Assembly: GCA_019241645.1 (NCBI GenBank)
Contig: JAFAWQ010000052.1
Location: 1-64,000, forward strand
Direction: 5' to 3'
DNA: 64,000 bases
From: Alphaproteobacteria bacterium
Lineage (GTDB): Bacteria > Pseudomonadota > Alphaproteobacteria > Micropepsales > Micropepsaceae
The translations under genes were made by a program, and so were the position numbers. Positions 3,483-28,331 of the stretch are shown one piece after another. The notes beneath the pieces were generated by a model. That model did not search any database. It was not told the DNA's origin and was given only the letters and a program-made list of their open reading frames with translations. The stretch's first letter is position 1. Each line of letters opens with the position of its first letter.

Positions 3483-3512
3483 GTCCGCGGCCTCGCTGAA
3501 GCCCCGCCCTTA

Positions 3513-4517: not shown

Positions 4518-4617
4518 TGTTTTGTCCGAGCTTTCCTAATTATCAGACGCCACTGCGCAGCTTCCCCCGTCGAAGGGGAGCAGCCAGCTGGAAGCAAAGG
4601 GGGTAGAGCGTTGCATT

Positions 4618-12273: not shown

Positions 12274-13686
12274 TCAGGGTCCATTCCTCCGTTCGGCTGC
12301 CTTGGCCGTGTCATCGGCTGAGGCAGCCCAGCCACCGCCGAGACTCTGATAGAGCTGAATGGTCGCGGTAAGCCGGTCCGCGTGGGTTTGAACGAGCGAA
12401 AGCTGCGCCGACAGCAATTGTCGTTGTGCATCAAGCTGATCGAGATACGGCGAATAGCCCGCGCGATAGCGGTTTCGCGCCAACTTCAGCGCATGTGCGA
12501 GAACCTCGCGTTGGGCCTCGAGCGTCTTTTCTTGTTCGGCAAGCCGCTGCACGGCGGCGAGAGCATCTTGAACTTCACGAAACGCCGTGAGCGCCGTCTT
12601 GCGATACACGAATGCCGCCTGATCGCGCCGGGCCGTCGCAGCGTCCTGCTGCGCCTCCAGTCGTCCGGCGGTGAAAATTGGCGCAAGTATGCTTGCACCC
12701 AGGGACCAAATTAATAGCGGACTGCTGGGGATCAACGTAGAACCCACATAACCGCCGGAGGCCGCCAGTTGGATGTCCGGCATGAATGCGTCGCGAGCAG
12801 CATTGAGCGCATGATCTGTCGCGGCAAGCTGCTGTTCCGCGGACGCAATGTCGGGCCTGCGGCTTAGCAACGAAGCGGGCACCGAAACCGGGATTGAAGG
12901 CACTGCGAATCCGTCAAAATGCCTGTTGCGCTCGATACCGCGCGGGTTCTCGCCCAAAAGCACGCTCAGACCATCCTCCTGTTTCGTCACGGCGAGCTCG
13001 GTTGCCGGGATGAGCTGCCGCGTGGCCTGGTAGGCGGCATCGGCCTGCGCGAGGTCGAGCTGGCTGGAATAGCCAACCTGCGCCCGATGCCGCGCAACGC
13101 GGAGCTCCTCCTCGCGTGCCTTCAAAGTGTCGCGCAGCACCGCAAGACGCGCATCGAGCGAACAGAGGGTGATGTACCCTGAGGCTGCGGAGGCGGCGAC
13201 GGCAAGACGCACATTGTCTCGTGCCGCTTCCGTTGCCAGTAGATTGGCACGTGCTGCCTCACTCGAATCTTTCAGCCGTCCGAACAGATCGAGGTCGTAT
13301 GAAATTCCGCCTTCCGCCTGCCAGGCTGATTGGAGTTCGGGAATACCGAACCCCGGATTGATCGTGCGTTCGCGCGCCCCCTCGCCGCCGATGGCGATGT
13401 TCGGCCACAGCTGCGCGCGCGCGAGACGGAATTGCGCCCGCGCCTCAGCCACGCGACCGGCCGCGATGGCGATATCGTCGTTGTGTTGCAGGGCCGCTTC
13501 CACGATCTGCGCGAGCACTTGGTCGTTGAAGGACCGCCACCACTGTGCGTCCACCGCGTCGTCCCTCGCCGCTGCCGCGCCGCGCCAGGCGGAAGGGGGC
13601 GTCACGGCGGCTTCCGGCGGAACCGGCGCCTTCGACCCAGCGCAGCCGGCAAGCAAAAGCGATATCAACACAAGAAGGCGTTTCAT
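12274..13686 (-). CDS. NodT/OprM-like outer-membrane efflux lipoprotein
   Basis: Outer-membrane channel (470 aa) of a tripartite pump, TolC/OprM superfamily. A lipoprotein signal peptide ends in the lipobox LLAGC with the acylated Cys at residue 15. Two repeated outer-membrane-efflux domains make the body, with long alpha-helical stretches (AGRVAEARAQFRLARAQ near 80, and its C-terminal counterpart) and the family ending near LYQSLGGGW. Its start overlaps the stop of the HlyD gene by 4 nt (ATGA), so it is translated with the pump. It is the last gene of the 11-gene minus-strand operon. Confidence 0.92.
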   Translation of the reverse strand: MKRLLVLISLLLAGCAGSKAPVPPEAAVTPPSAWRGAAAARDDAVDAQWWRSFNDQVLAQIVEAALQHNDDIAIAAGRVAEARAQFRLARAQLWPNIAIGGEGARERTINPGFGIPELQSAWQAEGGISYDLDLFGRLKDSSEAARANLLATEAARDNVRLAVAASAASGYITLCSLDARLAVLRDTLKAREEELRVARHRAQVGYSSQLDLAQADAAYQATRQLIPATELAVTKQEDGLSVLLGENPRGIERNRHFDGFAVPSIPVSVPASLLSRRPDIASAEQQLAATDHALNAARDAFMPDIQLAASGGYVGSTLIPSSPLLIWSLGASILAPIFTAGRLEAQQDAATARRDQAAFVYRKTALTAFREVQDALAAVQRLAEQEKTLEAQREVLAHALKLARNRYRAGYSPYLDQLDAQRQLLSAQLSLVQTHADRLTATIQLYQSLGGGWAASADDTAKAAERRNGP

Positions 13687-14741
13687 GGTCCGCCGCTTGT
13701 CTGAACGTGTGTGATGACCGACATCCCGGGACGAAGCCGCGCTATGGCGGATTGTCCCCCGTTGATCGCGATGCGAACACCGATGCGTTGCGGCACCTTG
13801 ACGAAATTCCCCGTGCCGTTGTCGGGTTTGATCACCGCGAATTCCGAACCCGCCGCGGGGGACAGCTGCTCTACACGGCCGTCGAACCGGGTTCCATCAA
13901 AGGCATCGACAGTGAATGTGACCGGTTGGCCGACGGCCATGTGCGCCGTTTGCGATTCCTTGTAGTTGGCGATGACCCAGCGCTCGGCCGGCACCAGGGA
14001 CATCATCTGCGTTCCATTCGTCACGTACTGGCCCAGCCGCACACCGATTTCACCCAGTTGTCCGGACTCCGGCGCGCGCACGACCGCGTGCCCAAGATCG
14101 ATCAGCGCGGAATCAAGCTGTGCCTTGGCGGCGGCGACCTGCGCGACGAGCCCTCCCTTTCCTACATCCACAGTCCGGATGTTTTGCTGCGCAACGTCCA
14201 CGGCCGCTTGCGCCTGAATGAGGGCCGCCTTGGTCTGGTCGCGCTCCCGGACCGACACCGAGCCGTCTCCCACCAGATCCTTGACGCGTGCCATATCCGC
14301 CTTTGCGCGCACCAGCGCCGCGGCCTGCCCCGCCAGCGATGCGACTCCCGAGGCGCGCGCCTGTCTGTTGTTCGCAAGCGCTGCCTCCGCTGCGGCAAGA
14401 TTGGCCTGCGACTGTTCCACGCGCGCGCGGTAGGTGCTGTCGTCGATGCGCGCCAATATCTCGCCCGCGTGAACTTGCGCATAATCATTCACCGGAACGG
14501 CGACCACATAACCGCTGACCTGCGGTGCGATCACGGTGGTTCGCCCCCGAACGTAGGCGTTGTCCGTCGTTTCGATGCCGCCGCCGAAGGGTGGCAGATC
14601 GAATGCCCACAGGATCGCCAGAATGCCAATAAGCGCGACCGCGCCAATGGCCGCGATCGACCACGGACCGCGGGCGGGCGGATGCCAAGTCTGTCTTGGC
14701 GGCGGCAGGACGGCCGTTTCATCCCGTACCGGCGCGCTCAT
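13683..14741 (-). CDS. EmrA/HlyD-type membrane fusion protein
   Basis: Periplasmic adaptor (352 aa) that joins the MFS pump to the outer-membrane channel. One N-terminal membrane helix at about residues 27-46; then the lipoyl-like half-motif (TTDNAYVRGRTTVIAPQVSG), a coiled-coil hairpin of about 110 residues rich in Ala, Gln and Arg, the second lipoyl half (VVRAPESGQLGE) and a beta-barrel domain. The ATG at 14741 is chosen because it overlaps the MFS stop by 4 nt and starts the family-length protein; the same frame stays open far upstream inside the MFS gene, which is a shadow. Confidence 0.92.
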   Translation of the reverse strand: MSAPVRDETAVLPPPRQTWHPPARGPWSIAAIGAVALIGILAILWAFDLPPFGGGIETTDNAYVRGRTTVIAPQVSGYVVAVPVNDYAQVHAGEILARIDDSTYRARVEQSQANLAAAEAALANNRQARASGVASLAGQAAALVRAKADMARVKDLVGDGSVSVRERDQTKAALIQAQAAVDVAQQNIRTVDVGKGGLVAQVAAAKAQLDSALIDLGHAVVRAPESGQLGEIGVRLGQYVTNGTQMMSLVPAERWVIANYKESQTAHMAVGQPVTFTVDAFDGTRFDGRVEQLSPAAGSEFAVIKPDNGTGNFVKVPQRIGVRIAINGGQSAIARLRPGMSVITHVQTSGGP

Positions 14742-16366
14742 GTCGCGACTTCGGCGTTGAGTCTCGATCGCCTGGCATCCGCGACGATCATCCATGCCAG
14801 CCATCCGGCCGTGGCCAAAGATGCCCACATCACCAGACGAAACACGTCGTCGAACGCCAGGGTGCTCGCTTCTGCCGTCAACGAGCGACCCAGGCGGCCC
14901 GTCCCCTGCGCGGCCCGCAATGCCGGATCGGTAAGGGTACCCGAGACCGCCCCGACTCCTTGTTGAATGCGTGCCACAACCTGCGGGTCGGAGGCCAGAA
15001 TATGCTCGCCCAGCGAAGCGGCATGCGCTCTTGTATAGACAACCTGTGCCGTTCCCAGGATAGCCGAGCCGGCGAGTCCGCCCACATTCTGGGTCATGCT
15101 GAAAACGACGATCAGGCTGACCAGATGCGTCGGGCCCTGCCTCAGCATTTGCAGAAATCCATACGCCAATGCAGGTCCGATGAAGAGCGTGGTGCCGAAG
15201 CCGATCAGCGATTGACTGAGATAGAGCTCGTGCGGCCTGGTGATGCTGGTCGAGCGACTGTCCAGAAACGCCGCAAGAGCGATAATGAGCGAGGCCGCCA
15301 ATACCTGGTAAGGCGGACTCTTCAGCGACATCGTCGCGCAAGCCACGACGATTCCCAGCACCACGGAAAGCGCCACGTAACCGAACAGGGTGTGGAGCTG
15401 ATCGTTTGTAAGCCCACCCGAGGTAAGGAAGCCCACCGATCCGTATGTCTGCTCGGCGAGGGCAAGGCGCACCAATAACGAGATGAGGAAGAAGCGCACA
15501 ATCTCGCCCTTGCCGATCCAGTCCGTATAGAGCAACGGACGGCCGCGAACCCGTTCCACGGCGATGGCGGCAGCGCACATGGCGACAGCGGCAACCAAAG
15601 CCCAACCCAGCCAGTCGCGATCCGTCCACCACAGCAGGCGTCCCTCCCCAAGGACGATGCAGAACAGGAGAAACGCGTGAACCATGAGGCCGATCGTGAT
15701 CAGGTCGCTGCCTTCGAACGCAGGGGTGTGATCAGTCGGCGGAAGCGGCACGGCGAAGATGGCTGCACTGACGAGCAAGCCCACGCCAAGCTCGATCAGC
15801 GACAGGCCGTGCCAGCTATCGGTGGCAATGACGTCCAGCGGAACAAGGCGGGCAAGCGGCGTGCCCAGCTGCACCACGCCGATCCCGATGACCAGCGCAA
15901 GTGGGCGAGCTCGGGGCGGAAGCGTCTGGAGAAAGTAGAAGACCGTGAGCGTCGTCAACCCGGCCGCCATCAGGCCGCAAGCGGCGCGCGTTGCGATCGC
16001 CGTGGCGTAACATGGAAACACGAGCTGGAGGAAAGCAGCCAGCGCATACAGGCCCATGAGCGCCTGCGTGAGATGGGGAATGCCAAATCGCGTGCGAGCC
16101 CGCACCAGCGATAGGTTCCCTGTTGCATTCATGGCGATGTAGATCGCCGGCAGCGCGCTCACCTGCGCCAGCGTAAGATTGAGCGAGCCGGCAAGATTGC
16201 CGGCGTTTACGTTGACGAGCGCGTTCGTGAAGGTGGTGCAGGCGCCGATCAGGATACCGACGCCGGCATAGGCAATGCGGCGCCGGTTGGAATGCACCGG
16301 CGTGTAGGGCGATCCAGGGAATTGGGGCCGCTCGTTTGGCGCGAACTCATATGCCGCTGCGCTCAC
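14738..16366 (-). CDS. DHA2-family MFS efflux transporter, EmrB-like
   Basis: Inner-membrane proton-driven exporter (542 aa) of the 14-helix DHA2 type, with many hydrophobic segments from about residue 30 to 525. It lies directly before a HlyD adaptor and an outer-membrane factor, the EmrAB-TolC-like arrangement. Its ATG overlaps the Dyp peroxidase stop by 4 nt, so pump synthesis is coupled to the peroxidase. The long loop near the C-terminus (around 450-500) is typical of EmrB proteins. The substrate is probably a product or substrate of the peroxidase pathway; this is inferred from the coupling only. Confidence 0.9.
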   Translation of the reverse strand: MSAAAYEFAPNERPQFPGSPYTPVHSNRRRIAYAGVGILIGACTTFTNALVNVNAGNLAGSLNLTLAQVSALPAIYIAMNATGNLSLVRARTRFGIPHLTQALMGLYALAAFLQLVFPCYATAIATRAACGLMAAGLTTLTVFYFLQTLPPRARPLALVIGIGVVQLGTPLARLVPLDVIATDSWHGLSLIELGVGLLVSAAIFAVPLPPTDHTPAFEGSDLITIGLMVHAFLLFCIVLGEGRLLWWTDRDWLGWALVAAVAMCAAAIAVERVRGRPLLYTDWIGKGEIVRFFLISLLVRLALAEQTYGSVGFLTSGGLTNDQLHTLFGYVALSVVLGIVVACATMSLKSPPYQVLAASLIIALAAFLDSRSTSITRPHELYLSQSLIGFGTTLFIGPALAYGFLQMLRQGPTHLVSLIVVFSMTQNVGGLAGSAILGTAQVVYTRAHAASLGEHILASDPQVVARIQQGVGAVSGTLTDPALRAAQGTGRLGRSLTAEASTLAFDDVFRLVMWASLATAGWLAWMIVADARRSRLNAEVAT

Positions 16367-17697
16367 ATCTGGAACTCGCCGAGCCAGCGCAAGGCCGACA
16401 AACTCGGCATGAAAAAGTATTCGCCGCCGCGAAGCACATTGAAGGTTTCGATACCGTGAACGCGGCGCCGGACCGGTTCCTTTGGAATGGTGAAATATGC
16501 ACCTTCCTCCTGACGGCCGATAATTGGATCGCGCTCCTCCCCTAGGCCGATGAAGTTACCCTCGTCGATCCATTCCTGTTGGAGGAATTCCATCGTCGCC
16601 ATCGCCTTGGCGCTGATGAACAGAAAGATGGCCCCGCGCTCCACATTGTCGGCGTCTTCGGACAATTCATTCGGATCGTAGGGTTTTCCATAGGTCGTGC
16701 CGCGCCGGATGAGTCGATGAATGTTCACATCGGTCAGCCGGGTGAGTTGCGTGTCGCGCGGGTTCATGCGCCGGATATGGCAACCGAACGGCGCCCTGCG
16801 ACCGTGGGTGTCGCCGGCATAGTTGAAATCGTTGTTGCGGTGCGGATCAGCGCCGAGCGCCGGATCGTCGGCGTCAGGTGCCAGGGTCAGCGGCGCGCCG
16901 CTGCGCCACCGGCCGACCAGTTTTGCTGCAACGAACTCCCGTTCGTCTTCGGTCTTTCCGTTGGCATGGAGGAAGCGGTTGAATGCGCCGACCCGCGATT
17001 GATACTTGCGGAAGCCCACATAGGTGCCGTTGCGACCGAGGATGTCCGGCTGCGGCATCGGCAGCGGCACGCCGGTCTCGCCTGGATAGCCAAGGATGAA
17101 TTCGCCGGCCTTGATCGGGTTGCCCTGGCCCGGCAGCGGGTCGACCCCGACGCCCTCCATCGCGGGCTGGTCAATACCGTCCTTGTAGCCCAGCGAATTG
17201 CGGTCACCCGGCTGCATGCCGAAATCCTGCACGGCCAACACCCGGACGCCATGCAAATCACGCAACTGCTCACGCGCCATCTCAACAATGCGCTGCCATT
17301 TCTCCATGGAGTCGCTAAACGCATTCAGCCCGATATGCGCTTCACCGTTTCCGAACAGCGGCTCCCAGTTTTTTGGGTCGTTGACGCCCTCGTCCCTCAA
17401 TTCCCTGGCGCGGGCTGCCATGCCCACGCGAAACGCTTCGGGAAAGCTCTGCAGCGATTCCGCCGGAAGGCCGAGGGCCTTGAAACCCGCATAGCTGATC
17501 GCAACCGAAATCCAGGCATCTGCGGGCTTCCACCAGTTCGCCGCCGAATCGACATGGGGCGCCAGCCGGCGGAGAAACTCATGGCCCGCTTTTGCATCGT
17601 CAACGCGGAACAGCACGTGGGAGCCATAGTACGGCGCCGGCCTTAGCCGGAGCACGGTCGCCTGTATTTCATGCAGTTCAACCTTAGGCGGACTCAT
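16363..17697 (-). CDS. Dyp-type (dye-decolorizing) haem peroxidase
   Basis: Haem peroxidase (444 aa) of the long class C/V type. The catalytic GxxDG motif is GYKDG at 170-174 with Asp173 as the distal acid. The proximal haem ligand is expected at His307 in the conserved HIRRMNPRD block. RRGTTYG at about 331-337 and the C-terminal FFMPSLSALRW segment also fit the family. No signal peptide, so it acts in the cytoplasm unless it is cargo of something not seen here. The start at 17697 gives family length and lies 11 nt after the upstream paralogue stop. It is coupled to the efflux genes by a 4-nt overlap. Confidence 0.93.
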   Translation of the reverse strand: MSPPKVELHEIQATVLRLRPAPYYGSHVLFRVDDAKAGHEFLRRLAPHVDSAANWWKPADAWISVAISYAGFKALGLPAESLQSFPEAFRVGMAARARELRDEGVNDPKNWEPLFGNGEAHIGLNAFSDSMEKWQRIVEMAREQLRDLHGVRVLAVQDFGMQPGDRNSLGYKDGIDQPAMEGVGVDPLPGQGNPIKAGEFILGYPGETGVPLPMPQPDILGRNGTYVGFRKYQSRVGAFNRFLHANGKTEDEREFVAAKLVGRWRSGAPLTLAPDADDPALGADPHRNNDFNYAGDTHGRRAPFGCHIRRMNPRDTQLTRLTDVNIHRLIRRGTTYGKPYDPNELSEDADNVERGAIFLFISAKAMATMEFLQQEWIDEGNFIGLGEERDPIIGRQEEGAYFTIPKEPVRRRVHGIETFNVLRGGEYFFMPSLSALRWLGEFQM

Positions 17698-17708
17698 CGC
17701 AACGCCCG

Positions 17709-18311
17709 CTATCCAATCTTGTCGAGGAACTCGTCGACAGCCGCACCGATTTTCTCGAGCCGCTTCGTTTCGGCGACCGTGAGATTGGGGGAAGCGACAT
17801 ACCAGGCATCGGCAGTGAGCTGATGACTGACGATCCAATCCTTGATTTTTGGACTGCTGATCCCCGGCCATCCCGCGCAATTGCAGAACAGGATGTCCAT
17901 CGATGTCGGAATCTTCGTCGCGAAGTCGTCGATGTACGTATCCCATTCACCGTCATAGGCTGTGCAGAAGAGAAGCTTGGTATCGTTCTCCAGCAGCACA
18001 AAGCGCATGTCATGCAAGGTGCCGACGATATCGGCGCCCTTGAAGTTTCCTCCCAGCAAATCCAGCAGGCCGCGAATGCGCTTGCCGCCGCCCGGCTCCA
18101 GCGGAATGATCGCGGTCAGTTCGGACACCTTGCCCTGGCGCGCGCCGATACGGCCCGCGCTTTCGCGCTGCATTGCGGCGGCAAGTTCGCGCGCCAGTCC
18201 CTCTTCGACCCCTTTCTTCAGGGCGACCCTGCCGATTTCCGGCGCATCCGCATAAAGCTCCTGCACCTTCCTAAGTTTTTCTTCGACTTGAATTTGTTCT
18301 TGCGTCGTCAT
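17709..18311 (-). CDS. Dyp-associated paralogue 3 (~200 aa orphan family)
   Basis: Third of three tandem paralogues (200 aa). Shared blocks are RIGARQGKVSELT (about 54-66), PLEPGGGKRIRGLL, VGTLHDMRFVLLENDTKLLF, TAYDGEWDTYIDDFATKIP, WYVASPNLTVAE and the ending AVDEFLDKIG. An alternating beta/alpha pattern with a conserved His-x-MRFV strand and YDG turn suggests a ferredoxin-like fold of the Dyp/EfeB/chlorite-dismutase type, but this is inference from pattern. It sits 9 nt after paralogue 2 and 11 nt before the Dyp gene. Unlike the other two it has a cysteine pair (FCNCAGWPG) in the variable loop. Function unknown. Confidence 0.85.
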   Translation of the reverse strand: MTTQEQIQVEEKLRKVQELYADAPEIGRVALKKGVEEGLARELAAAMQRESAGRIGARQGKVSELTAIIPLEPGGGKRIRGLLDLLGGNFKGADIVGTLHDMRFVLLENDTKLLFCTAYDGEWDTYIDDFATKIPTSMDILFCNCAGWPGISSPKIKDWIVSHQLTADAWYVASPNLTVAETKRLEKIGAAVDEFLDKIG

Positions 18312-18320
18312 GTCGTCCGC

Positions 18321-18932
18321 CTAGCCAATCTTGTCGAGGAATTCGTCCACGGCCGTGCCGACCTTTTCGAGCCGTCGGGTCTCGGCGGCGGTCAGGTTTG
18401 GGCTGTTGACGTACCAGGCTTCGGCGGCAATTTGGTGCGCGGCGATCCAGTCCGCCGCCGCCTTCGGGTTTCGCATTCCTGGGTAACCCTCAAAATTGCA
18501 CAGCCACAGATCCATAGCGTTCGGAATCTTCGCCGCGAAGTCCTCGATGTAGGGGTCAAAGTCGCCGTCATATGCGGTCGCGAAGAGTATCTTCGTATCG
18601 TCATCCACGAACACGAAGCGCATGTCGTGCACTGTGCCTACGGCGTCGGCAGCCTTGAAGTTGCCTTCCAATAGCTCCAGAAATCCACGCAGCCGCTTCG
18701 CTCCGCCTGGCACGAACGGAAGAAACACGGTGAGCTCCGAGACCTTGCCCTGACGGGCGCCGATGCGGCCGGCTGTTTGGGCGTGCCCCGGCGCTGCCAG
18801 TTCCTTGGTGAGCATGGCGAGCCCGTTCTTCAGCGCGGCTTTGCCTATTTCAGGCGCGTCGGCGTAGAGCTCCCGCAGCTTCTGAAGTTTCTGCTCCGCG
18901 GTCATGTTGGTTTTCGCTTCATTCGTGGTCAT
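18321..18932 (-). CDS. Dyp-associated paralogue 2 (~200 aa orphan family)
   Basis: Second tandem paralogue (203 aa). It keeps the common blocks: YADAPEIGKAALKNG near the N-terminus, RIGARQGKVSELT, PGGAKRLRGFLELLEGN, VGTVHDMRFVFVDDDT, TAYDGDFDPYIEDF, WYVNSPNLTAAE and AVDEFLDKIG. A strong AAGGAGGGG ribosome site precedes the ATG. The spacing and near-identical C-terminal ten residues show an origin by tandem duplication. No catalytic motif could be named. Confidence 0.85.
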   Translation of the reverse strand: MTTNEAKTNMTAEQKLQKLRELYADAPEIGKAALKNGLAMLTKELAAPGHAQTAGRIGARQGKVSELTVFLPFVPGGAKRLRGFLELLEGNFKAADAVGTVHDMRFVFVDDDTKILFATAYDGDFDPYIEDFAAKIPNAMDLWLCNFEGYPGMRNPKAAADWIAAHQIAAEAWYVNSPNLTAAETRRLEKVGTAVDEFLDKIG

Positions 18933-18971
18933 GCCTGCCTTCCCCTCCTTTTTAGATGGTGTGCTATTCGC

Positions 18972-19592
18972 TCAGCCGATCTTGTCCAGGAATTCGTCGA
19001 CGGCCTTGGCGATGCGCTGGTTCCGTAGAATTTCCGCTACCGTTAGATCGGGATAAGCGACGTACCAGCCTTCTGCCGTGATCTGGTGACTGGCGAGGTA
19101 GTCTTTCGCGCCGGGGCTGCGGATGCCAGGCCAGCCGTCCCACGCAGAGTCGATGATGTCGAGGTAATCGGGAATCTTGGCGACGAAGTCGTCGATGTAG
19201 GTGTCCCAATCGCCGTCATAGGCTGTCGCGAAGAGCAGCCGCGTGTCGTTGTCGAAGAACACGAAGCGCATGGTGTGGAGCGTGCCCACCAAATTCGCAC
19301 CCTGCGAGAGATTGCCACCCAAAATTCGCAGGAACGCCCGCAATCGCTTTGCGCCGCCGGGTGCCAGTGGAACGATGATCGTCAGCTCGGAAACCTTGCC
19401 GAGGCGCGCGCCGACGCGGCCGGCGCTTCCAATCGGCGGCGGCGGATCCGAGGCCTGCGACTTCAGCGTGTTGATCGAGTTTTCCAGCGCCTGCTTGCCA
19501 ATCTCCGGCGCGTCGGCGAACAGCTCCCGGAACTGCCGGATCTTGGCGTGAATGTCCGAAGAAGGGTCCGATCCGGTGTTGAGTGTCGCCAT
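18972..19592 (-). CDS. Dyp-associated paralogue 1 (~200 aa orphan family)
   Basis: First tandem paralogue (206 aa). It has FADAPEIGKQALEN, RVGARLGKVSELT, PGGAKRLRAFLRILGGN, VGTLHTMRFVFFDNDT, TAYDGDWDTYIDDFVAKIP, WYVAYPDLTVAE and AVDEFLDKIG. It differs from its sisters by a short proline run (DPPPPIG) before the core. The ATG at 19592 is supported by a GGGAG site about 7 nt upstream; the frame stays open further upstream but only as a shadow of the TPR gene. It starts 13 nt after the TPR protein stop. Confidence 0.85.
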   Translation of the reverse strand: MATLNTGSDPSSDIHAKIRQFRELFADAPEIGKQALENSINTLKSQASDPPPPIGSAGRVGARLGKVSELTIIVPLAPGGAKRLRAFLRILGGNLSQGANLVGTLHTMRFVFFDNDTRLLFATAYDGDWDTYIDDFVAKIPDYLDIIDSAWDGWPGIRSPGAKDYLASHQITAEGWYVAYPDLTVAEILRNQRIAKAVDEFLDKIG

Positions 19593-19605
19593 CTTTGTTT
19601 CTCCC

Positions 19606-20703
19606 TCACATTGGATTTGGTTGAGCGGCCAACTCTTTGGCGCTTTCGTACCGGTCGCTGCGTCTCGTCCGGTCAAGACCCTTCGCGATCCTGTCCATCT
19701 GGGTGATCGCGCGCCGTGTCGGACGATTGGCGGCATTTGTGCGTGCAAGCTCAAGTGCCAGCTCCGGGTCGTTCCCATCATCGGCGTAGAATTCGGCGGC
19801 ATGGTCCGCGAAAGCGAGCCGGTGTTTCGCCAGCAGGCTTTCGAAGCCTGAGCGAGCGGCCTTTCGCTGTATCTCGGCCTCTTCGAAGCGCCCCTGCGCG
19901 ATGCGCACGCCAGCGAGACGCCATCGCACTTCGGGATCGCAGCTGGATAACGCCGACAGCAGCAGCGCCTCCGCATCGGAGAGTTGGTCCTCGCTTGCGT
20001 AGATTTCTGCGAGGTGGACGCGCGCCCTCACATAGCCCGGCAGGTAGGCAATCGCGCGTTGATACCAGCGTTCTGCGAGTCTCAGATCGGGCTCGGGCAC
20101 GAGTTCTCCCCACAGCATGCCGAGCTGAAAACAAACCCACGCCAGCGGAAACGGCGAGGTACCGTCGTACGACGAAAAAGCCTTCCGATAGACCGCATCC
20201 GCCTCGGCGAACCGCTCGAGATCGGCGAACAGGGCGCCGAGCGGCACGAGCTCCTCGATCTTTCCGCTTTCCGCGGCGAAGCGGCAGCGCCCGTCCAGCA
20301 CATCGTCGAGTTGCAGGCCACATGCCTGGTTGACGGCCAACAACCGCCGCTCGATGTCGATGCACGGCGCGCCCAACCGCGCCGCAGCTGAAAGGTGAGT
20401 TCTGGCGTCGCGGAAGCGGTGCGCCGACGACGCGACCTCCGCTTCCAAAAGGGGGGCGCGAAACGATTCATCCGCATGAGCAAATTGCCGGGCCAGCATC
20501 TCCAGGCGATCGAGCGCGGTCAGATCGCCAAGGAACTGCGCGACCATGCGCTCCAGATCGACAAGCGACTCCGCGACGCGCGGCGCGCCGGAGTCTTGCG
20601 TAAAGCATGCCCATGCGCGCCGGCGCGTGCTTTCCAGATTGATCGCGGCAATCTGTCCGTCAGTGACAGTCCGACCGTCGCCAAGGTCCAATGCGGTGCT
20701 CAC
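19606..20703 (-). CDS. TPR-like helical repeat protein
   Basis: Soluble helical protein (365 aa). From about residue 60 it shows repeating pairs of helices with TPR-like spacing of Ala, Gly and Leu (for example ALFADLERFAEADAVYRKAF, AERWYQRAIAYLPGYVRARVHLAEIYASEDQLSDAEALLLSAL). It is likely a binding scaffold. The GTG at 20703 is chosen because its GTGA overlaps the HupE stop by 4 nt; the open frame upstream lies wholly inside the HupE gene. Its place between HupE and the paralogues suggests it organises partners of this pathway, which is inference. Confidence 0.75.
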   Translation of the reverse strand: MSTALDLGDGRTVTDGQIAAINLESTRRRAWACFTQDSGAPRVAESLVDLERMVAQFLGDLTALDRLEMLARQFAHADESFRAPLLEAEVASSAHRFRDARTHLSAAARLGAPCIDIERRLLAVNQACGLQLDDVLDGRCRFAAESGKIEELVPLGALFADLERFAEADAVYRKAFSSYDGTSPFPLAWVCFQLGMLWGELVPEPDLRLAERWYQRAIAYLPGYVRARVHLAEIYASEDQLSDAEALLLSALSSCDPEVRWRLAGVRIAQGRFEEAEIQRKAARSGFESLLAKHRLAFADHAAEFYADDGNDPELALELARTNAANRPTRRAITQMDRIAKGLDRTRRSDRYESAKELAAQPNPM

Positions 20704-21293
20704 GGCGACACAAGAAAGGCGACGCCAGCCAACGCCATGGCGGACCCGCTGATCTGAAGAATTCTGCGACTGTACGCCTTGCCTGCCCTGGCAATCGCCA
20801 GACCCAAACCAATGCCAATCCCGTGAAGCAGCGCGGTGGCGAAGACAAATCCAAGGCCGTAGGTTAAACCGGACACGCTGGCCGGCATTTCCGCGCCATG
20901 TACGTGGCCATGAAAGATGGCGAAGAATCCCACGGCGGCCATCGCAGCCAGCGTCGGGACGCTGACCTGCAACGCCACAGCCATTCCCAGCACGATGATC
21001 GACAGGCCGATACCGATTTCCGCGAATGGCAAACGCACGCCCGCCATACCCGCCAAGCCGGCAACCGCCATGATCGAAACAAATGTCAGCGGTACGAGCC
21101 ACAGAGCCCGTCCGCCCAAATGGGCAGCGAACATGCCGACGGCAACCATTGCCAGAACATGGTCGACGCCGCTCAACGGGTGCGCGAAGCCATGCACGAA
21201 TCCGTGCGTACCGCCAATACCCACATGGGCCGATGCGGACACCGGCATGAATACGAGCGCCGCGATGCACACTCTGAGAATGGACCGCATCAT
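20700..21293 (-). CDS. HupE/UreJ-like membrane protein
   Basis: Polytopic inner-membrane protein (197 aa) with a cleavable-looking N-terminus (ending ASA, about residue 22) and about six helices. The His-rich opening (GGTHGFVHGFAHPLSGVDH) and the later FHGHVHGAEMP motif are the HupE/UreJ signature; relatives carry Ni or Co, or help metalloenzymes. No hydrogenase or urease gene is in the window, so its metal role here is open. The stop overlaps the TPR gene start by 4 nt; the aldehyde dehydrogenase is 37 nt upstream. Confidence 0.88.
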   Translation of the reverse strand: MMRSILRVCIAALVFMPVSASAHVGIGGTHGFVHGFAHPLSGVDHVLAMVAVGMFAAHLGGRALWLVPLTFVSIMAVAGLAGMAGVRLPFAEIGIGLSIIVLGMAVALQVSVPTLAAMAAVGFFAIFHGHVHGAEMPASVSGLTYGLGFVFATALLHGIGIGLGLAIARAGKAYSRRILQISGSAMALAGVAFLVSP

Positions 21294-21330
21294 TGTTCGG
21301 CCCGCATTTCAGTAGCTTGTTTCATCAGGA

Positions 21331-22734
21331 TCACGGGCGGCCCCCCGAAACGGCGTCGCTCATTTCCGCCGCAACACGGATCAGCTTCTTGTTGACGAAC
21401 TCGCCGATGCCGAGATGCGACAGTTCGCGGCCGTATCCGGAATTCTTCACTCCGCCGAACGGAAGCTCCGGAGACGTACCGGTCGCCCGGTTTATGAAGA
21501 TCATCCCGGATTCGATCCGGCGCGCGACGCGCTTGCCGCGTTCGACGTCTTTGGTGATCACGCTTCCGCCCAATCCGAAAGGCGAATCGTTGGCCACGCC
21601 GACCGCCTCGTCTTCATTCTTCACCCGGAAGAACATGGCGACCGGCGCGAAGAATTCGAGATGAAAAGCCGGATTGTCCGGCCTTACATCGGTGAGAATG
21701 GTGGGCGCGAGAAAGAACCCGCGCCGGTCGAGCCGCTTTCCGCCCAGCAACACATTGGCGCCGCCCTTGATCGCGATGTCGATCTGCTTCAGCGCATTGT
21801 TAAGGGCGGCCTCCGTGCAAAGAGGAGCCAGCGAGGTTCCGGGATCCATTGGATCGCCGGGCTTCAGTTTCTCGACCTCACTCTTGACCCGGGTGAGGAA
21901 CGCATCGGCGATGCCTTCCAGAACAATGAAGCGCTTCGCCGAGATGCAGGATTGGCCGGAATTGCGCATGCGCCCGTTGACCGCCCATTTCACCGCGGTC
22001 TCGAGGTCCGCATCGTCCAGCACGATGAAGGGATCGCTGCCGCCAAGCTCCATGGTGCTTTTTTTCAGCGCCTGACCTGCCTCGGAAGCCACCGCCGCCC
22101 CTGCCCGCTCGCTGCCGGTCAGCGCCACGCCCCTGATCCGGCTGTCGGCGATGACCTTCGCCGCCTGCTCATTGGTCAGAAAGACATTCGTCCAGACGCC
22201 CGCAGGGGCGCCGGCATCGAGAAACAGCCTCTCGAATGCCAGCGCGCATTGCGGCACATTCGGCGCGTGCTTGCAGATGACTGTGTTGCCGATCATGAGA
22301 TTCGGCGCAGCCACGCGCACCAGCTGATAATAGGGAAAATTCCACGGCTCGACGCAGAACAGCACGCCCAGCGGTGCGGTCTCGATGAATGCCTCGCCGT
22401 CTTTCACATCGATTTTCTCGGGAGCGAGGAAGTTCTCAGCGTTGTCCGCGAAGTAGTCGAGGATATCCGCGCACAGGCTGAGTTCGGACCGCCCCTCACG
22501 GAGCAACTTGCCCATTTCCAGCGTGCTGTATCCGGCGAACTCCTCGATCCTCTCGCGCAGAATGGACGCCGCTTTTTTCACCACGGTCTTGCGTGCCGCG
22601 GGCGATCTCTTGCTCCAGTCGGCCTTGTACGTCTCGTCCGCTTTGGCGACGATCGCTTCGGCTTCGCTATCGCTGTGCAGGTCGAATGTTCGGACAAGCT
22701 CTTCGGTGTAAGGGTTGATCGTCTGGTATTGCAT
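21331..22734 (-). CDS. NAD(P)-dependent aldehyde dehydrogenase, succinate-semialdehyde type
   Basis: Oxidises an aldehyde to its acid (467 aa, normal length). Catalytic Cys263 lies in GQSCISAKR and general-base Glu229 in MELGGSDP; PWNFPYYQ at 130-137 is the cofactor-domain signature, and FGGVKNSGYGREL closes the protein. The closest match by eye is the GabD/Sad succinate-semialdehyde group, but the true substrate is unknown. A GGAG site lies 7 nt before the ATG. In this operon it would remove a reactive aldehyde made upstream, which is inference. Confidence 0.88.
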   Translation of the reverse strand: MQYQTINPYTEELVRTFDLHSDSEAEAIVAKADETYKADWSKRSPAARKTVVKKAASILRERIEEFAGYSTLEMGKLLREGRSELSLCADILDYFADNAENFLAPEKIDVKDGEAFIETAPLGVLFCVEPWNFPYYQLVRVAAPNLMIGNTVICKHAPNVPQCALAFERLFLDAGAPAGVWTNVFLTNEQAAKVIADSRIRGVALTGSERAGAAVASEAGQALKKSTMELGGSDPFIVLDDADLETAVKWAVNGRMRNSGQSCISAKRFIVLEGIADAFLTRVKSEVEKLKPGDPMDPGTSLAPLCTEAALNNALKQIDIAIKGGANVLLGGKRLDRRGFFLAPTILTDVRPDNPAFHLEFFAPVAMFFRVKNEDEAVGVANDSPFGLGGSVITKDVERGKRVARRIESGMIFINRATGTSPELPFGGVKNSGYGRELSHLGIGEFVNKKLIRVAAEMSDAVSGGRP

Positions 22735-22760
22735 GAAGTGATCTCCGCTTGGTCTTGCGC

Positions 22761-24329
22761 TTACGGTCGCACTGGTTCTCGATCGGTGCCGAAGCGGGAT
22801 TTCAGGCTTCCGAGACCGCTCTCGATAAGTCCGGTGACCATGTCCCTGACCCGGATGTCGGGGAGTCCGTCTGCCAGAAATTGAACCCGCCAGGCGGCGA
22901 CGCAGCCGGCGCCGCGCGGTCTCACATCGATCGTTCCCGCGTAGTCGGAGGCGGGAATCCCGGCGACCATCGAGTAGCGATAGATGCGCTTCGCCTCATC
23001 GACCTCGTCGAGGCGCTCGACAATGGTGCGGCCGTCTCCTGTCTCTATGCGGCGGAGCTGACCGGTTCCGGAGCCGATCAGCGCGACCTTCGCGACATGG
23101 GGATGCCAGCTGAGGTCGAACTGTCCGATCAGTGACCACACCGCCTCCGGCGCGGACGCGAGCTCGACGGAATCGGCGACGCACTGCACTTCGCTGTTCG
23201 GCGACGCGAAGTATGGAAAGACATTCGTGCCGGGCTTTGTCGCGCCGGTCGCTCCACCCCGCAGGAATTCGCGATCGCGGTTTATGAGCCAGGTGAGCAG
23301 GATGTCGATCACGTTGGCATTGATGGTGCGGCCGCCGCCGGTCCGGTAGGGCACGCCGTTCAGTGTGCTTTTCTCGATTTCGAGATGACTATCGTCCGTG
23401 ATCGGTTTGGCGATGTCGAACAGAAGAAAATCGTCGAGGAAGACGCGGGCATTGGCGGCGCGCGCTTCCGACGTCCAGTCGGCCTTGCCGTCGCGCATGT
23501 CCCAGTCGGCGAAGCTGGCATTCAGACGCTTGAGGAACAGAGGCTGGAGGTCCGGCGAGATCGCGAACGGCTTCTGCTGATTCCACAGGTCGCGGATGTC
23601 GTCGACGCCCTGCAGTCCGGGATTGTTCAGACGAATGTTCGTCTGCTCGGGCTTTCCCACCCAATCGATACGCGCGACAGGGTGGCCGATGCGCCCCGGC
23701 GGTTCGCGCGGGACCGTCTCGCCGATCGCGCCGAACAATGTGCCGGCGGCGGAATCGAGCATGCACTTTGTGTCGAACTCGACGACCAGGCACAACACGT
23801 TGTCGTGCTGCAGCAGGTTCGGCACCTTCTCGAGTGTGGCGGCGATCACGGCCAGATAGAAGGGGTCGGAGCGCAACCCCGCGAACACGCGCGGATCGCC
23901 TTCCGGCGCCGTCGCGCCCCCTTCCTCATTCACGGTGAGTTGAAGTTTGCGGCCGTCCGGCAGCACGCAAACACCGCGCTGGACGATTCTGCCCTCTGCG
24001 TCCCGTTGGAGAGCCCCGAAACGGAACACGAAGCGGATCTCGTCCTCTGATGGTGAAAACTTCGCCGCATTGCCGCTGCCGTCTACCGTAACCCGGCGAA
24101 GGGCAATGGTGTAGTCGATGACGTTCGAGAACACGGCGCTAACGCCGGCCGATGGAAAAACGCACATGGCGAGAACCGTGCGCGCCGGGTCTGCCGGACT
24201 TGTAAATGCGAAGAGATCCGTCACATCGGCTGGCGGATCGCCGATCGAGCGCGGACCGTCAACGTGATCGGACACGTTGATACCTCCAGAGGTTTCCGTC
24301 TGGCGAACACGGACAATGGGCTCCGCCAT
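22761..24329 (-). CDS. DUF4331-SRPBCC fusion protein
   Basis: Two-domain protein of 522 aa. Residues ~18-370 match the DUF4331 pattern (DHVDGPRSIGDPPADVTDLFAF at the start, then FDTKCMLD and DDFLLFDIAKPI), a family of unknown function usually found alone and secreted. Here there is no signal peptide. Residues ~378-515 form an SRPBCC/polyketide-cyclase-like domain (SVELASAPEAVWSLIGQFD, WHPHVAKV, YAGTIDVRPRG), a fold with a deep hydrophobic ligand pocket. It is the first gene of the 11-gene operon. A 37-bp element shared with the other unit lies 60 nt upstream. Confidence 0.8.
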   Translation of the reverse strand: MAEPIVRVRQTETSGGINVSDHVDGPRSIGDPPADVTDLFAFTSPADPARTVLAMCVFPSAGVSAVFSNVIDYTIALRRVTVDGSGNAAKFSPSEDEIRFVFRFGALQRDAEGRIVQRGVCVLPDGRKLQLTVNEEGGATAPEGDPRVFAGLRSDPFYLAVIAATLEKVPNLLQHDNVLCLVVEFDTKCMLDSAAGTLFGAIGETVPREPPGRIGHPVARIDWVGKPEQTNIRLNNPGLQGVDDIRDLWNQQKPFAISPDLQPLFLKRLNASFADWDMRDGKADWTSEARAANARVFLDDFLLFDIAKPITDDSHLEIEKSTLNGVPYRTGGGRTINANVIDILLTWLINRDREFLRGGATGATKPGTNVFPYFASPNSEVQCVADSVELASAPEAVWSLIGQFDLSWHPHVAKVALIGSGTGQLRRIETGDGRTIVERLDEVDEAKRIYRYSMVAGIPASDYAGTIDVRPRGAGCVAAWRVQFLADGLPDIRVRDMVTGLIESGLGSLKSRFGTDREPVRP

Positions 24330-24499: not shown

Positions 24500-25336
24500 T
24501 CAACCGGCATGGCCGGCGGCCCTGGTTTCGATCCAGGCGATGATGTCGGCCATCACCTTTTCCCTGCCGACATCGTTCAACAGGTCGTGATAGTGGCCCT
24601 CGTAGAATTTGAGCGTTTTGTCGACCGATCCTGCTTGATCGTAGAACGCCTGGCTGCCGCTCGGTCTCGTTACCTTGTCCGCAGTGCCGTGCAGGATGAG
24701 TACGGGCAGCGTGATCCGTGGAAACTCGCGCTTCAGCCGCTCATCGGCGCGGGCCAGCGCGGCGACGGTTGCCGCCGGTTGGGCTTCATCCGCGATCAGC
24801 GGATCGGCGTTCTTCGCTTTCACGACGTTCGGATCGCGGGAAAAATCCTTGTTGTGAAGGGTCAGCGCATGCGCATGCGGCGCGAGGTGGCTGATGCCTT
24901 TCACGAGCGCTATTGCAATATCCGGCGCGGGCACCTGGAAGGCGAAGTCCTCGCAGATCAGCCCCGCGATCCGGTCCTGGTTGTCCAAGGTGTAAACGCA
25001 CGAGACGACGCCGCCGGCGCTGTGGCCGAACAGGTAGACGGGCGCGTCCGGTTCGCGCTTTTCCGCCAGCTCGATGAGCATCGCAACATCGCCGACATAG
25101 TCCGAGAGGTCCTCGACATAGAACCGTTCCCCGTCCGATTTTCCGCGGCCACGCAAATCGAGCGCGTAGACCGCGAAACCCGCAGCCCGCAGTTGCTCGG
25201 CGGCCCACACATATTCGCCGCTGTGAGAATTGAGGCCATGGCAGATGGCCACCACGCCGCGCGGCTTGCTGTCGGGATGCCATGAGCGGAAGAAAATCGC
25301 GATATCCTTCCGGCCGGTGAACCGTTCCTCGTTCAT
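24500..25336 (-). CDS. Monoacylglycerol-lipase-like alpha/beta-hydrolase
   Basis: Cytoplasmic serine hydrolase (278 aa) of the Hydrolase_4/lysophospholipase type. HGLNSHSGEY near residue 33 is the oxyanion region of this family; nucleophile Ser106 is in GHSAGG; the acid is Asp in LHGTADKVTRP and the base His in EGHYHDLLND. The ATG at 25336 is preceded by GAGGGG; the longer frame adds an unrelated basic leader. It is the last gene of the upstream hydrolase unit. A lipid ester or another carboxylic ester is the likely substrate. Confidence 0.87.
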   Translation of the reverse strand: MNEERFTGRKDIAIFFRSWHPDSKPRGVVAICHGLNSHSGEYVWAAEQLRAAGFAVYALDLRGRGKSDGERFYVEDLSDYVGDVAMLIELAEKREPDAPVYLFGHSAGGVVSCVYTLDNQDRIAGLICEDFAFQVPAPDIAIALVKGISHLAPHAHALTLHNKDFSRDPNVVKAKNADPLIADEAQPAATVAALARADERLKREFPRITLPVLILHGTADKVTRPSGSQAFYDQAGSVDKTLKFYEGHYHDLLNDVGREKVMADIIAWIETRAAGHAG

Positions 25337-25392: not shown

Positions 25393-26271
25393 TTACGCGA
25401 CAGCGGGATCGAGGCCGGCAAGCCACAGCGCCACGTTGCGCGCATAGGTCTTCGCCGATACGAGCGCTTCAGGCGTCTCGACCATCCCGTTGCCCGGCGG
25501 CTCGGTGACAAAACTAGGTGCCCCGGTGCTGAGGTCCCAGTTGTAGTCGGCGAAGTGATGAAACGTCGATTGCGCGATGGCCGGACCGTTCTCCCGATCC
25601 GGCTCGAACACCACGGCGATATTGAAAACTGCGCCAGTGACCTTGCTCCGGCCGGTAGCGATGACCCGCGCGGTCGCGTCGCCCGGCGGCGCGCTCACCG
25701 CCCCTTCGTGCGGATGCGCAGGCAGAAACCGCAGCGCCTGTTGCGGGTTGGAGGGATCGCGCAGCACCGGATGCAGCGCGCCTTCTGCTCCGATCTCCTG
25801 ATAGTCGCCGTTCGCACCGGAATGGTAGTTAGGCCAGAGGATCGTGGTGGTGAACGGGTCGTCGATCTTGTGGCGCGAAGGATCAGGCTCCGGATTCTTC
25901 GAATGGAAGTGGTGCGCCAATCCAACGCCGCCCAACGTGCAGACCGACGAACCGAGGTCCATGTGATCGCGGGCGACAAGCAGACCGCCGCCGCGCTGGC
26001 GAAATTTGGCAATCGCCGCGCAATCCTCAGGCGTCAGCCCGTCACCTTCATCGACGGCGAAGAGCCACAATTCGTCGAAGTCTGTCTCATCGATGCGGGG
26101 AAGTACGTTGTCTTGTGCGCCATCGCGATCACGCGCCGCAACGGCAAACAATCTCGATCCCTCCGTGCCTTCGAGGCCATTCAGATACTCCGACAGGAGA
26201 TGGAAGCGTGCGATGCTCCAATTGTCTTGCTCCGCCGGGATGGTGGTTTGCAGAAGAATTTTTTTCGGCAT
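25393..26271 (-). CDS. ThuA-like / class I glutamine-amidotransferase-fold protein
   Basis: Protein of 292 aa without a signal peptide. FDELWLFAVDEGDGLTPEDC (about 65-84) followed by a central RQRGGGLLVARDHMDLG strand-turn is the pattern of ThuA-like GATase folds, where a flavodoxin-like domain is topped by a Gly-rich elbow. The usual catalytic Cys is not present at the elbow, so it is probably not a glutaminase. His-rich segments (HHFHS, HPHEG, FHHFADYNWD) may bind metal. The role is unknown. It sits 12 nt after the cupin gene. Confidence 0.6.
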   Translation of the reverse strand: MPKKILLQTTIPAEQDNWSIARFHLLSEYLNGLEGTEGSRLFAVAARDRDGAQDNVLPRIDETDFDELWLFAVDEGDGLTPEDCAAIAKFRQRGGGLLVARDHMDLGSSVCTLGGVGLAHHFHSKNPEPDPSRHKIDDPFTTTILWPNYHSGANGDYQEIGAEGALHPVLRDPSNPQQALRFLPAHPHEGAVSAPPGDATARVIATGRSKVTGAVFNIAVVFEPDRENGPAIAQSTFHHFADYNWDLSTGAPSFVTEPPGNGMVETPEALVSAKTYARNVALWLAGLDPAVA

Positions 26272-26283
26272 TGAAGGTCCCGG

Positions 26284-26697
26284 CTACTTGTCGATCGGCG
26301 TCGTCAAATTGGTCTCGTTGGTATCGACAACAAACACCGCCAGCAAACGCGCCGGCTCCGTGGCGCTCGCGTTCGCGCTCACGGAGTGCCGGTCGCCGGG
26401 GTTCTCCGAGAAGCTTTCACCGGCGCGATATGTCTTCACGGGTCCGTCATTAACCTGGCTGCGAATCGCACCCTCCAGAACCGTGGCATAGATGAACGCC
26501 GACTTCGGATGCATGTGTGCCGGAGAGGTGCCGCCCGGCCCGTACTCGACAAGGATTCCCTTCAGGCTTTTGCCCGGCACATTGGGCAACACGTGGTCGT
26601 AGACCATCGTGACTTTTGCCTCCGGCGCCTTGGGTGCCGGCGCGGCGGCGATGCATAGCGCCGCAGCGGCTGCCGCGAAGAAGAGGCGAGAGATCAT
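26284..26697 (-). CDS. Secreted small cupin protein
   Basis: Exported single-domain cupin (137 aa). A signal peptide covers about residues 1-20. The first cupin motif reads SPAHMHPKSAFIYATVLEG, with two His as likely metal ligands; the second motif has GDRHSV with another His. Such proteins bind a transition metal and may be dioxygenases, isomerases or sensors of small acids. Its ATG overlaps the upstream NmrA-like stop by 4 nt and has AAAGGAG 7 nt before it. It is the only clearly exported product of this transcription unit. Confidence 0.82.
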   Translation of the reverse strand: MISRLFFAAAAAALCIAAAPAPKAPEAKVTMVYDHVLPNVPGKSLKGILVEYGPGGTSPAHMHPKSAFIYATVLEGAIRSQVNDGPVKTYRAGESFSENPGDRHSVSANASATEPARLLAVFVVDTNETNLTTPIDK

Positions 26698-28315: not shown

Positions 28316-28331
28316 GGTCTCGTTTCCCTTC

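Follow-up and report, generated by a model that had tools for sequence, protein, structure and literature searches.

The window, that is, the whole 64,000-nucleotide stretch of DNA analysed here, belongs to an alphaproteobacterium of the family Micropepsaceae and carries a run of genes for a DyP-type peroxidase, three orphan paralogues (P1, P2 and P3), a HupE/UreJ protein, a TPR protein, a DUF4331 protein, an aldehyde dehydrogenase (ALDH) and an efflux pump. The question raised by this locus is whether such a mixture constitutes one system and, if so, on which kind of compound it acts.

Organization of the operon

All 11 genes were confirmed by gene-call and gap checks as one run on the minus strand, from 24329 to 12274, with gaps of 9-39 nt and four 4-nt overlaps, in agreement with the first-pass annotation. 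In the order of transcription, the DUF4331-SRPBCC gene is separated by 26 nt from ALDH and this by 37 nt from HupE, which overlaps TPR by 4 nt; P3 follows after 13 nt, P2 after 39 nt, P1 after 9 nt and DyP after 11 nt, and DyP, MFS and HlyD each overlap the next gene by 4 nt, OMF being the last. The starts of P3 (19592), TPR (20703, GTG), DyP (17697) and HlyD (14741) were corrected, the raw ORF list being too long at these genes. The domain names given earlier also hold: OEP, HlyD, HupE_UreJ, Aldedh, DUF4331, Polyketide_cyc2 and TPR_19 passed the Pfam cut-offs, while MFS and DyP had weaker profile scores, DyP being backed by a solved homologue. The sigma-70 scan was uninformative and returned no site, and there was no relative among the 192 pattern matches obtained for a virus link.

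The DyP-type peroxidase and the P family

The DyP gene (16363..17697, minus strand) encodes a predicted cytoplasmic protein of 444 aa, of which 437 residues matched the solved DyP of D. radiodurans (8re3) with an E value of 2e-183. It keeps the G170-x2-D173-G motif (G170YKDG), the proximal H307 and Arg331/332; G170YKDG, H307 and R331 were conserved across 20 relatives, the heme residues being invariant. By its GXXDG motif, proximal His and distal Arg it is predicted to be a DyP-type peroxidase of class C/V. Its score against NCBIfam TIGR01413 was 91.9 bits for a cut-off of 100.5, which is a score threshold and not a biochemical feature, and the PF04261 (Dyp_perox_N) profile search of the genome was empty because this DyP class is too distant from the model. 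No encapsulin shell gene was found among the operon genes or the annotated relatives, and the enzyme does not correspond to an encapsulin-packaged DyP.

The D. radiodurans enzyme (DR_A0145; PDB 8re2/8re3), also of class C/V, is about 60% identical to that of the window (60.5%, tblastn). Both have the same heme residues and a P gene directly upstream, but D. radiodurans has Met in GXXDG, where the window has the canonical GYKDG, and a catalase-family gene downstream instead of DUF4331, ALDH, HupE, TPR and the pump. Purified by itself, the D. radiodurans DyP showed no activity at neutral pH, and the authors of that work suggested that it has a partner; what DyPs do physiologically has yet to be settled in the field (PMC10820274).

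The minus-strand genes P1 (17709..18311, 200 aa), P2 (18321..18932, 203 aa) and P3 (18972..19592, 206 aa) encode proteins that are mutually about 54-65% identical and that matched no Pfam or NCBIfam model. Their family has no significant PDB relatives. The comparison was based on about 75 loci, and in all 61 P loci examined DyP lay on the strand of P, within 500 nt in 52 of them and with P upstream (5') in 56; three of the 61 encode a single P450-P-DyP polypeptide (Pfam). The paralogues, previously regarded as orphans, are thus indeed without a known family, but they are members of one DyP-tied family rather than an isolated oddity. P3 grouped with the first P of an Acidobacteriota locus (support 100/99). 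Co-occurrence and fusion show an association of P with DyP, and the P proteins are probably partners dedicated to this DyP clade. A conserved partner that accompanies DyP in all P loci of the comparison, and is fused to it in some, would directly explain the inactivity of the purified member, and the operon is a concrete handle on the role and partners of this DyP class. P-DyP loci often add a third heme protein, either catalase-like, with conserved heme residues, or a P450, in which the O2-activating acid of the I-helix was absent in six of seven cases.

The P1 query gave an AlphaFold model (pLDDT 68, pTM 0.68) with a ferredoxin-like beta-alpha-beta-beta-alpha order, and that of P2 was poor (pLDDT 47). 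The best Foldseek matches of the P1 model were dimeric alpha+beta barrel proteins, Abx(+)O (E 0.2) and ActVA-Orf6 (E 0.63); since they are not significant, such a fold for P is suggestive only. An origin of P as a DyP domain duplicate was rejected, with a profile comparison probability of 0.3% and no detectable P-DyP homology. Weak matches to oligogalacturonate lyase, in one short stretch round LLF-x-x-x-x-DG-W, were judged to be due to chance.

The DUF4331-TPR-HupE module

The first gene of the run (22761..24329, minus strand; 522 aa) encodes DUF4331 fused to an SRPBCC domain (Polyketide_cyc2), a START/PR-10-like lipophilic-ligand domain for which solved structural relatives exist, and no signal peptide is apparent in the protein. 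Both halves passed their cut-offs (PF14224, 78 bits for a gathering score of 27; Polyketide_cyc2, 70 bits), the DUF4331 score being far from the canonical 500-bit group. The same fusion was found in relatives at 66-71% identity, with full-length counterparts in Bradyrhizobium CB82 (71%) and S. chiapasense (67%), while among 387 genomes of the class nearly all matches outside this genome were to the SRPBCC half only. The TPR protein (19606..20703, minus strand; 365 aa, TPR_19 35.6 bits) has relatives of 68% identity that adjoin DUF4331 on two rhizobial plasmids, and five genomes belonging to a single genus gave relatives of 53-67%. The HupE/UreJ membrane protein (20700..21293, minus strand; 197 aa) belongs to its family by PF04955 (175.9 bits for a cut-off of 23) and is a predicted metal permease, with a signal peptide-like N terminus, about six hydrophobic segments and a 55% identical counterpart in the S. 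chiapasense cluster. Neither a urease nor a hydrogenase gene was recognised in the operon.

Eight of 10 full-length DUF4331 loci carried DUF4331-TPR-HupE without P-DyP, mostly adjoining a sigma/anti-sigma pair. These loci, from other genomes of the phylum (L202-L208 and L210), keep the order DUF4331, TPR, HupE seen in the window but differ from it in a full-length, exported-looking DUF4331, a HupE of the HupE_UreJ_2 family and the absence of DyP and P. HupE and TPR go with DUF4331, and therefore HupE need not serve DyP. DUF4331, which was not named in any paper found by our literature search, now has two defined genetic contexts.

Two modules joined in one operon

Gene neighbourhoods show that the operon combines two modules, P-DyP and DUF4331-TPR-HupE, each of them widespread on its own. 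DyP, DUF4331 and TPR are also linked in Bradyrhizobium CB82, S. chiapasense, two Rhizobium plasmids, two Streptomyces plasmids and seven loci of one genus, and according to the tree two or more distinct DyP lineages have this linkage. The core of P, DyP, DUF4331 and TPR was checked for scattering in relatives, and none was seen; this core linkage supports the dedicated system proposed earlier, in that its genes are co-inherited and not chance neighbours. The odd gene mix is real and non-random, and represents two modules joined (about 75 loci). The operon genes look laterally gained, because P was absent from all 36 congeneric genomes.

The clusters on S. chiapasense pSchITTGS70a and Bradyrhizobium CB82 pCB82_1 share P, DyP, DUF4331-SRPBCC and TPR with the window, and the former HupE as well. 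They differ in having a molybdenum hydroxylase, a 2Fe-2S protein and cytochrome c where the window has ALDH, and they are without the MFS-HlyD-OMF trio, in place of which S. chiapasense has FUSC/DUF1656/HlyD. ALDH, MFS and OMF are not common to the window and its closest relatives. A hemA gene lies near the S. chiapasense cluster.

Proposed aldehyde oxidation and export

ALDH (21331..22734, minus strand; 467 aa) is of NAD(P) type (Aldedh, 443.8 bits), with the GQSC cysteine and ELGG glutamate motifs. Its best NCBIfam model, PRK09406, gave 479 bits for an equivalog cut-off of 730, and an assignment as succinate-semialdehyde dehydrogenase was rejected. In the rhizobial and streptomycete versions its place is often taken by molybdenum hydroxylase and cytochrome c; this hydroxylase, of the xanthine/aldehyde oxidase family, is not a proven aldehyde oxidase because its matches to xanthine, aldehyde and hydroxybenzoyl-CoA enzyme models are all far below cut-off.

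The pump comprises, all on the minus strand, a divergent MFS transporter (14738..16366; 542 aa) with at least nine hydrophobic segments in a crude scan and an MFS_1 score of 31.3 bits, just below the cut-off of 33.4, an EmrA-like periplasmic adaptor of the HlyD family (13683..14741; 352 aa; HlyD_D23 and HlyD_3 above cut-off) and an outer-membrane efflux lipoprotein of the NodT family (12274..13686; 470 aa; TIGR01845, 339.5 bits for a cut-off of 210). Parts of an EmrAB/FarAB-TolC tripartite pump are present, but that assignment was rejected on the MFS score and on the 195.6 bits of HlyD against the EmrA subfamily model TIGR00998 (cut-off 390.8). At other loci FUSC-HlyD or ABC-HlyD-TolC pumps replace MFS-HlyD-OMF, and efflux adaptors of several pump types adjoin 10 of 23 annotated P-DyP plasmid loci (raw count). 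The earlier scheme of oxidation, aldehyde removal and export is favoured by this functional replacement of ALDH and pump, without being proven by it.

Substrate and proposed function

Fatty-acid genes are the commonest linked metabolic genes at P-DyP loci: lipid genes (oleate hydratase, thioesterase, 3-hydroxyacyl-CoA dehydrogenase, patatin, acyl-CoA dehydrogenase) adjoin 12 of the 23 annotated plasmid loci (raw count). Oleate hydratase, thioesterase and phospholipase genes accompany the catalase-type P-DyP loci, and for this reason a lipid-derived substrate may be involved rather than an aromatic one. Catalase-type islands on Novosphingobium, Agrobacterium, Sphingobium and Roseomonas plasmids have the P-DyP pair in common with the window and combine it with TetR, acyl-CoA thioesterase, 3-hydroxyacyl-CoA dehydrogenase and oleate hydratase, but have no DUF4331 or ALDH. 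It must be noted that the window operon is without the catalase-like gene and the fatty-acid genes on which the lipid case rests, that its nearest DUF4331 relatives, which are rhizobial, are without oleate hydratase, and that a search of this genome, run without a positive control, gave no catalase-family match elsewhere. Our literature search found no paper tying the kind of substrate suggested by the recurring lipid genes to these DyPs, nor any that treats DyP together with oleate hydratase, fatty-acid hydroperoxide or P450 gene clusters.

The reading that we prefer, with a probability of about 0.45, is that the operon was gained laterally and serves the oxidative detoxification or the catabolism of a hydrophobic compound, probably one derived from lipids, P-DyP having been joined to DUF4331-TPR-HupE. 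P would bind DyP and switch on or steer the heme enzyme, which, given its homology and heme residues, would use peroxide to oxidise or cleave the substrate in the cytoplasm. The SRPBCC half of its paired protein would hold the hydrophobic substrate, with TPR as a scaffold. ALDH would convert an aldehyde product to the acid, the rhizobial molybdenum hydroxylase and cytochrome c being placed for the same job, and the MFS-HlyD-OMF pump would export the product or surplus substrate. HupE would have arrived with the DUF4331 module.

A rather unlikely alternative is an aromatic form of the scheme first put forward, in which DyP oxidises plant- or lignin-derived phenolics, ALDH or the molybdenum hydroxylase oxidises an aromatic aldehyde and the acid is pumped out. 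DyPs in general act on dyes, lignin units and aromatic sulphides (PMC10820274), the S. chiapasense pump is of the type of the hydroxybenzoate exporter AaeAB and the closest DUF4331-type clusters are those of root-nodule bacteria. Nevertheless, no ring-hydroxylating, demethylating or ring-cleaving gene was recognised in the window operon or beside P-DyP in the annotated relatives compared, and the recurring neighbours are fatty-acid genes; nothing points specifically to the bulky aromatics formerly suggested.

It is improbable that the operon is an oxylipin-like or secondary-metabolite pathway, in which DyP-P would use hydroperoxides and the product would leave the cell to act as a signal or a weapon, detoxification not being the purpose. 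Among hydroperoxide lyases and allene oxide synthases, catalase-related and P450 enzymes are known as a pair that does one step (PMC5617202), and a Nostoc heme dioxygenase joined to a catalase-related lyase is cited in PMC13049297; both parallel the catalase-like or P450 companion of the peroxidase-type heme protein at P-DyP loci, fusions included. DyP, however, is related to neither lipoxygenase nor cyclooxygenase; no lipoxygenase or fatty-acid dioxygenase and no catalase-related or P450 hydroperoxide enzyme was seen in the operon, and the literature search found no lipid chemistry for any DyP of this class. A bolder proposal, which we hold as doubtful, is that a large DyP clade has P as an obligate subunit, either for activation or for delivery of the substrate, and that P-DyP, together with a companion that is catalase-like or a non-monooxygenase P450, forms a mobile and so far undescribed bacterial pathway for lipid peroxides, analogous to the oxylipin pathways of plants, corals and fungi, with the window as a version whose downstream steps are taken by DUF4331-SRPBCC, ALDH and the pump.

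Finally, a defence against peroxide or redox stress in general, to which ALDH, HupE and pump would be unrelated passengers of lateral transfer, which would suit peroxide enzymes such as DyP and catalase-like proteins, the sigma/anti-sigma pair beside DUF4331-TPR-HupE in other genomes and the lack of ALDH, MFS and OMF in the closest relatives, has little probability in view of the tight spacing and translational overlaps, the independently repeated DyP/DUF4331-TPR linkage and the functional replacement of ALDH and pump elsewhere.

Upstream genes

Five further minus-strand genes lie upstream, from 28345 to 24500, with gaps of -4 to 56 nt, and a single 170-nt gap separates them from the 11-gene run, so that the tandem may be longer than the 11 genes stated earlier. 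By its strand and position, the gene next to this gap (24500..25336), for a monoacylglycerol-lipase-like hydrolase (Hydrolase_4; PF12146, 228 bits), is a possible member, and it is preceded in the same run by a gene for a 292 aa protein without Pfam or NCBIfam match (25393..26271). Three of the five (hydrolase, NmrA and cupin) also adjoin P-DyP in other genomes and are probable members of an extended cluster: in Microvirga (L007) a 59% relative of the NmrA-like NAD(P)-binding protein (26694..27464) directly follows DyP and a 42% relative of the cupin (26284..26697; Cupin_2, 54.9 bits) is found two genes after it, and in Rhizobium ACO-34A (L079) the gene that immediately follows DyP encodes a 63% relative of the alpha/beta hydrolase (27488..28345).

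Genomic organization of the operon

Re-examination of the sequence bore out the run of 11 minus-strand genes, from 24329 to 12274, proposed in the first-pass annotation. Genes for DUF4331-SRPBCC, aldehyde dehydrogenase (ALDH), HupE, TPR, P3, P2, P1, DyP, MFS, HlyD and OMF follow one another in this order with gaps of 9–39 nt and four 4-nt overlaps. Four starts, all on the minus strand, were corrected: TPR (20703, GTG), P3 (19592), DyP (17697) and HlyD (14741). The family names given to these genes stand on profile searches (Pfam and NCBIfam), with weaker scores for MFS (slightly below the Pfam cut-off) and DyP (slightly below that of NCBIfam). By PDB comparison, the window DyP is clearly homologous over its full length to the D. 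radiodurans enzyme of solved structure (DrDyP). Upstream, past a 170-nt gap, five more genes in the same direction reach 28345. Since relatives of the hydrolase (63%), the NmrA-like protein (59%) and the cupin (42%) encoded there adjoin DyP in other bacteria, the unit may start at 28345.

The P family and its association with DyP

The three orphan paralogues P1, P2 and P3 had no match in Pfam or NCBIfam and no significant match in the PDB. Relatives were gathered from plasmids, one Acidobacteriota contig and several hundred genomes. A same-strand DyP was present in all 61 P loci examined, a set of mixed entry found in part through P and in part through DyP, DUF4331 or TPR; among the examined loci found through P alone (for plasmids, 28 records minus Rhizobium oryzihabitans), the linkage was equally without exception. 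The distance to DyP was at most 500 nt in 52 of the 61 loci and at most 1.7 kb in 59, with P located 5' of DyP in 56. The reverse order was observed at L126:6465-8459 and at L169–L172. At three loci, P450, P and DyP parts lie in that order in one frame of 1410–1544 aa (L036:7856-12085, L037:6827-11425 and L139:6598-11229), with a proline in the I-helix at the expected site of the O2-activating acid, while several other loci encode two P domains in tandem within one protein. Judged from linkage and fusion, P1–P3 belong to a family of DyP partners.

Of the two P genes on the Acidobacteriota contig, the first groups with P3 in the tree and the second lies close to P1 and P2, so that the triplet probably arose from an old pair and a single later duplication. 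In the AlphaFold model of P1 (pLDDT 68, pTM 0.68), strands and helices follow one another as in a ferredoxin-like domain; a structure search with it returned only dimeric alpha+beta barrel matches, none of them significant.

Additional heme proteins and lipid genes

A catalase-like protein is encoded within 3 kb in 34 of the 61 P-DyP loci. The Pfam match of these proteins is weak; they keep the arginines and the proximal R-x3-Y of catalases, and the distal histidine is present in 10/11. At other loci a P450 adjoins P-DyP or is fused to it. Six of seven such P450s carry AGFVPT, GFIPT, GAIPT or GGPPQ in the I-helix instead of AG-x-[ED]-T, and this loss of the acid suggests that peroxides are used rather than O2. 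The exception, at a Methylorubrum locus with its own ferredoxin and reductase, retains AGHETT. To our knowledge, the sole case of catalase-like proteins and P450s sharing one step is that of oxylipin hydroperoxide lyase/allene oxide synthase.

Lipid genes were found near P-DyP in 12, and an efflux adaptor in 10, of 23 annotated plasmid loci, both being raw counts to which a single mobile island contributes several nearly identical loci (Novosphingobium, Agrobacterium pusense, Sphingobium and Roseomonas). This island (L010, L077, L119 and L120) carries oleate hydratase, 3-hydroxyacyl-CoA dehydrogenase, thioesterase, TetR, catalase-like protein, P and DyP. Its near-identity on plasmids of Novosphingobium, clinical Roseomonas mucosa, Agrobacterium and Sphingobium indicates recent transfer between orders. 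In oxylipin pathways, catalase-like proteins and P450s both act as hydroperoxide lyase/allene oxide synthase (PMC5617202), and a cyanobacterial heme dioxygenase partners a catalase-related lyase, according to work cited in PMC13049297.

The DUF4331 module

In other genomes of the phylum, TPR and HupE genes lie beside full-length DUF4331 in 8 of 10 loci, seven of these eight also having sigma and anti-sigma genes, and neither P nor DyP was found within about 8 kb. The DUF4331-TPR-HupE_UreJ_2 trio is conserved at L202–L208 and L210, mostly adjoining the sigma/anti-sigma pair. At L215:6676-9197, DUF4331, DUF4198 and a HupE 44% identical to that of the window are consecutive; DUF4198 is linked to Ni/Co uptake.

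In the window, DUF4331 is divergent, seems to be cytoplasmic and is joined in one protein to an SRPBCC domain of the lipophilic-ligand type. Linkage of this fusion (66–71% identical) and an accompanying TPR gene (67–69%) to P-DyP recurs in Bradyrhizobium CB82, in S. chiapasense and at three loci of a single genus. In Streptomyces and Rhizobium, and at additional loci of that genus, the P-DyP-linked proteins are remoter and shorter and match the DUF4331 half only. DUF4331-TPR occurs without P-DyP at L167 and L168. The window DyP forms a clade with those of Microvirga and the Acidobacteriota contig, both having catalase-like genes, and a separate clade holds most of the other rhizobial DyPs. Given the well-supported branches, the linkage of DyP with DUF4331-TPR must have changed at least twice on the tree; a tie in function is better supported by such repeated joining than by one shared operon.

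Extra hemA (5-aminolevulinate synthase) genes adjoin DyP/DUF4331/Mo-hydroxylase clusters at L011:6908-8137 and 20207-21314, L171 and L172, which suggests that heme is needed locally.

DyP, ALDH, HupE and tripartite pumps are of already known kinds. In the non-subscription literature searched, no paper was found that describes P proteins as a family, their association with DyP, P450-P-DyP fusions or the merger with DUF4331-TPR.

REPLACEMENTS

In place of the window's ALDH, a Mo-hydroxylase with its 2Fe-2S and cytochrome c subunits occurs in Bradyrhizobium CB82, in S. chiapasense and at seven P-DyP-linked loci of one genus. Likewise, the MFS/HlyD/OMF pump of the window is replaced by FUSC/DUF1656/HlyD in S. 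chiapasense and by ABC/HlyD/TolC pumps at other loci. The first-pass annotation had proposed that a small molecule is oxidised, an aldehyde removed by the dehydrogenase and the product exported. As the enzymes change while these three steps stay constant, the outline is supported as a scheme; the replacements leave its substrate unfixed.

Proposed mechanism

Gene content, linkages, heme residues and replacements were observed directly. Upon these, P would bind DyP and activate or steer it, SRPBCC would bind a hydrophobic substrate, ALDH would clear an aldehyde and the pump would export the product. The role proposed for P fits published data on DrDyP, which by itself is inactive at neutral pH and, as its authors suggest, may interact with a further protein (PMC10820274); these data open the proposal to direct test. 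We tentatively favor a lipid-derived substrate for the scheme (probability about 0.45); an aromatic one, passing through the same oxidation, aldehyde and export steps, seems rather unlikely.

Origin of the operon

The 36 other congeneric genomes searched gave no match for P, nor did the few of them sampled within the class search give one for DUF4331. The flanks are unrelated to the operon, with a response regulator and an AraC-type regulator on one side and a porin and Kdp on the other. Given these absences and flanks, lateral gain is the simplest reading. The host is probably an alphaproteobacterium, judging from its relatives among the search matches. Elsewhere in the window, consecutive genes for a TonB receptor, a FecR-like protein and a FecI-like sigma factor (1095-5163) constitute a separate surface-signalling uptake system.
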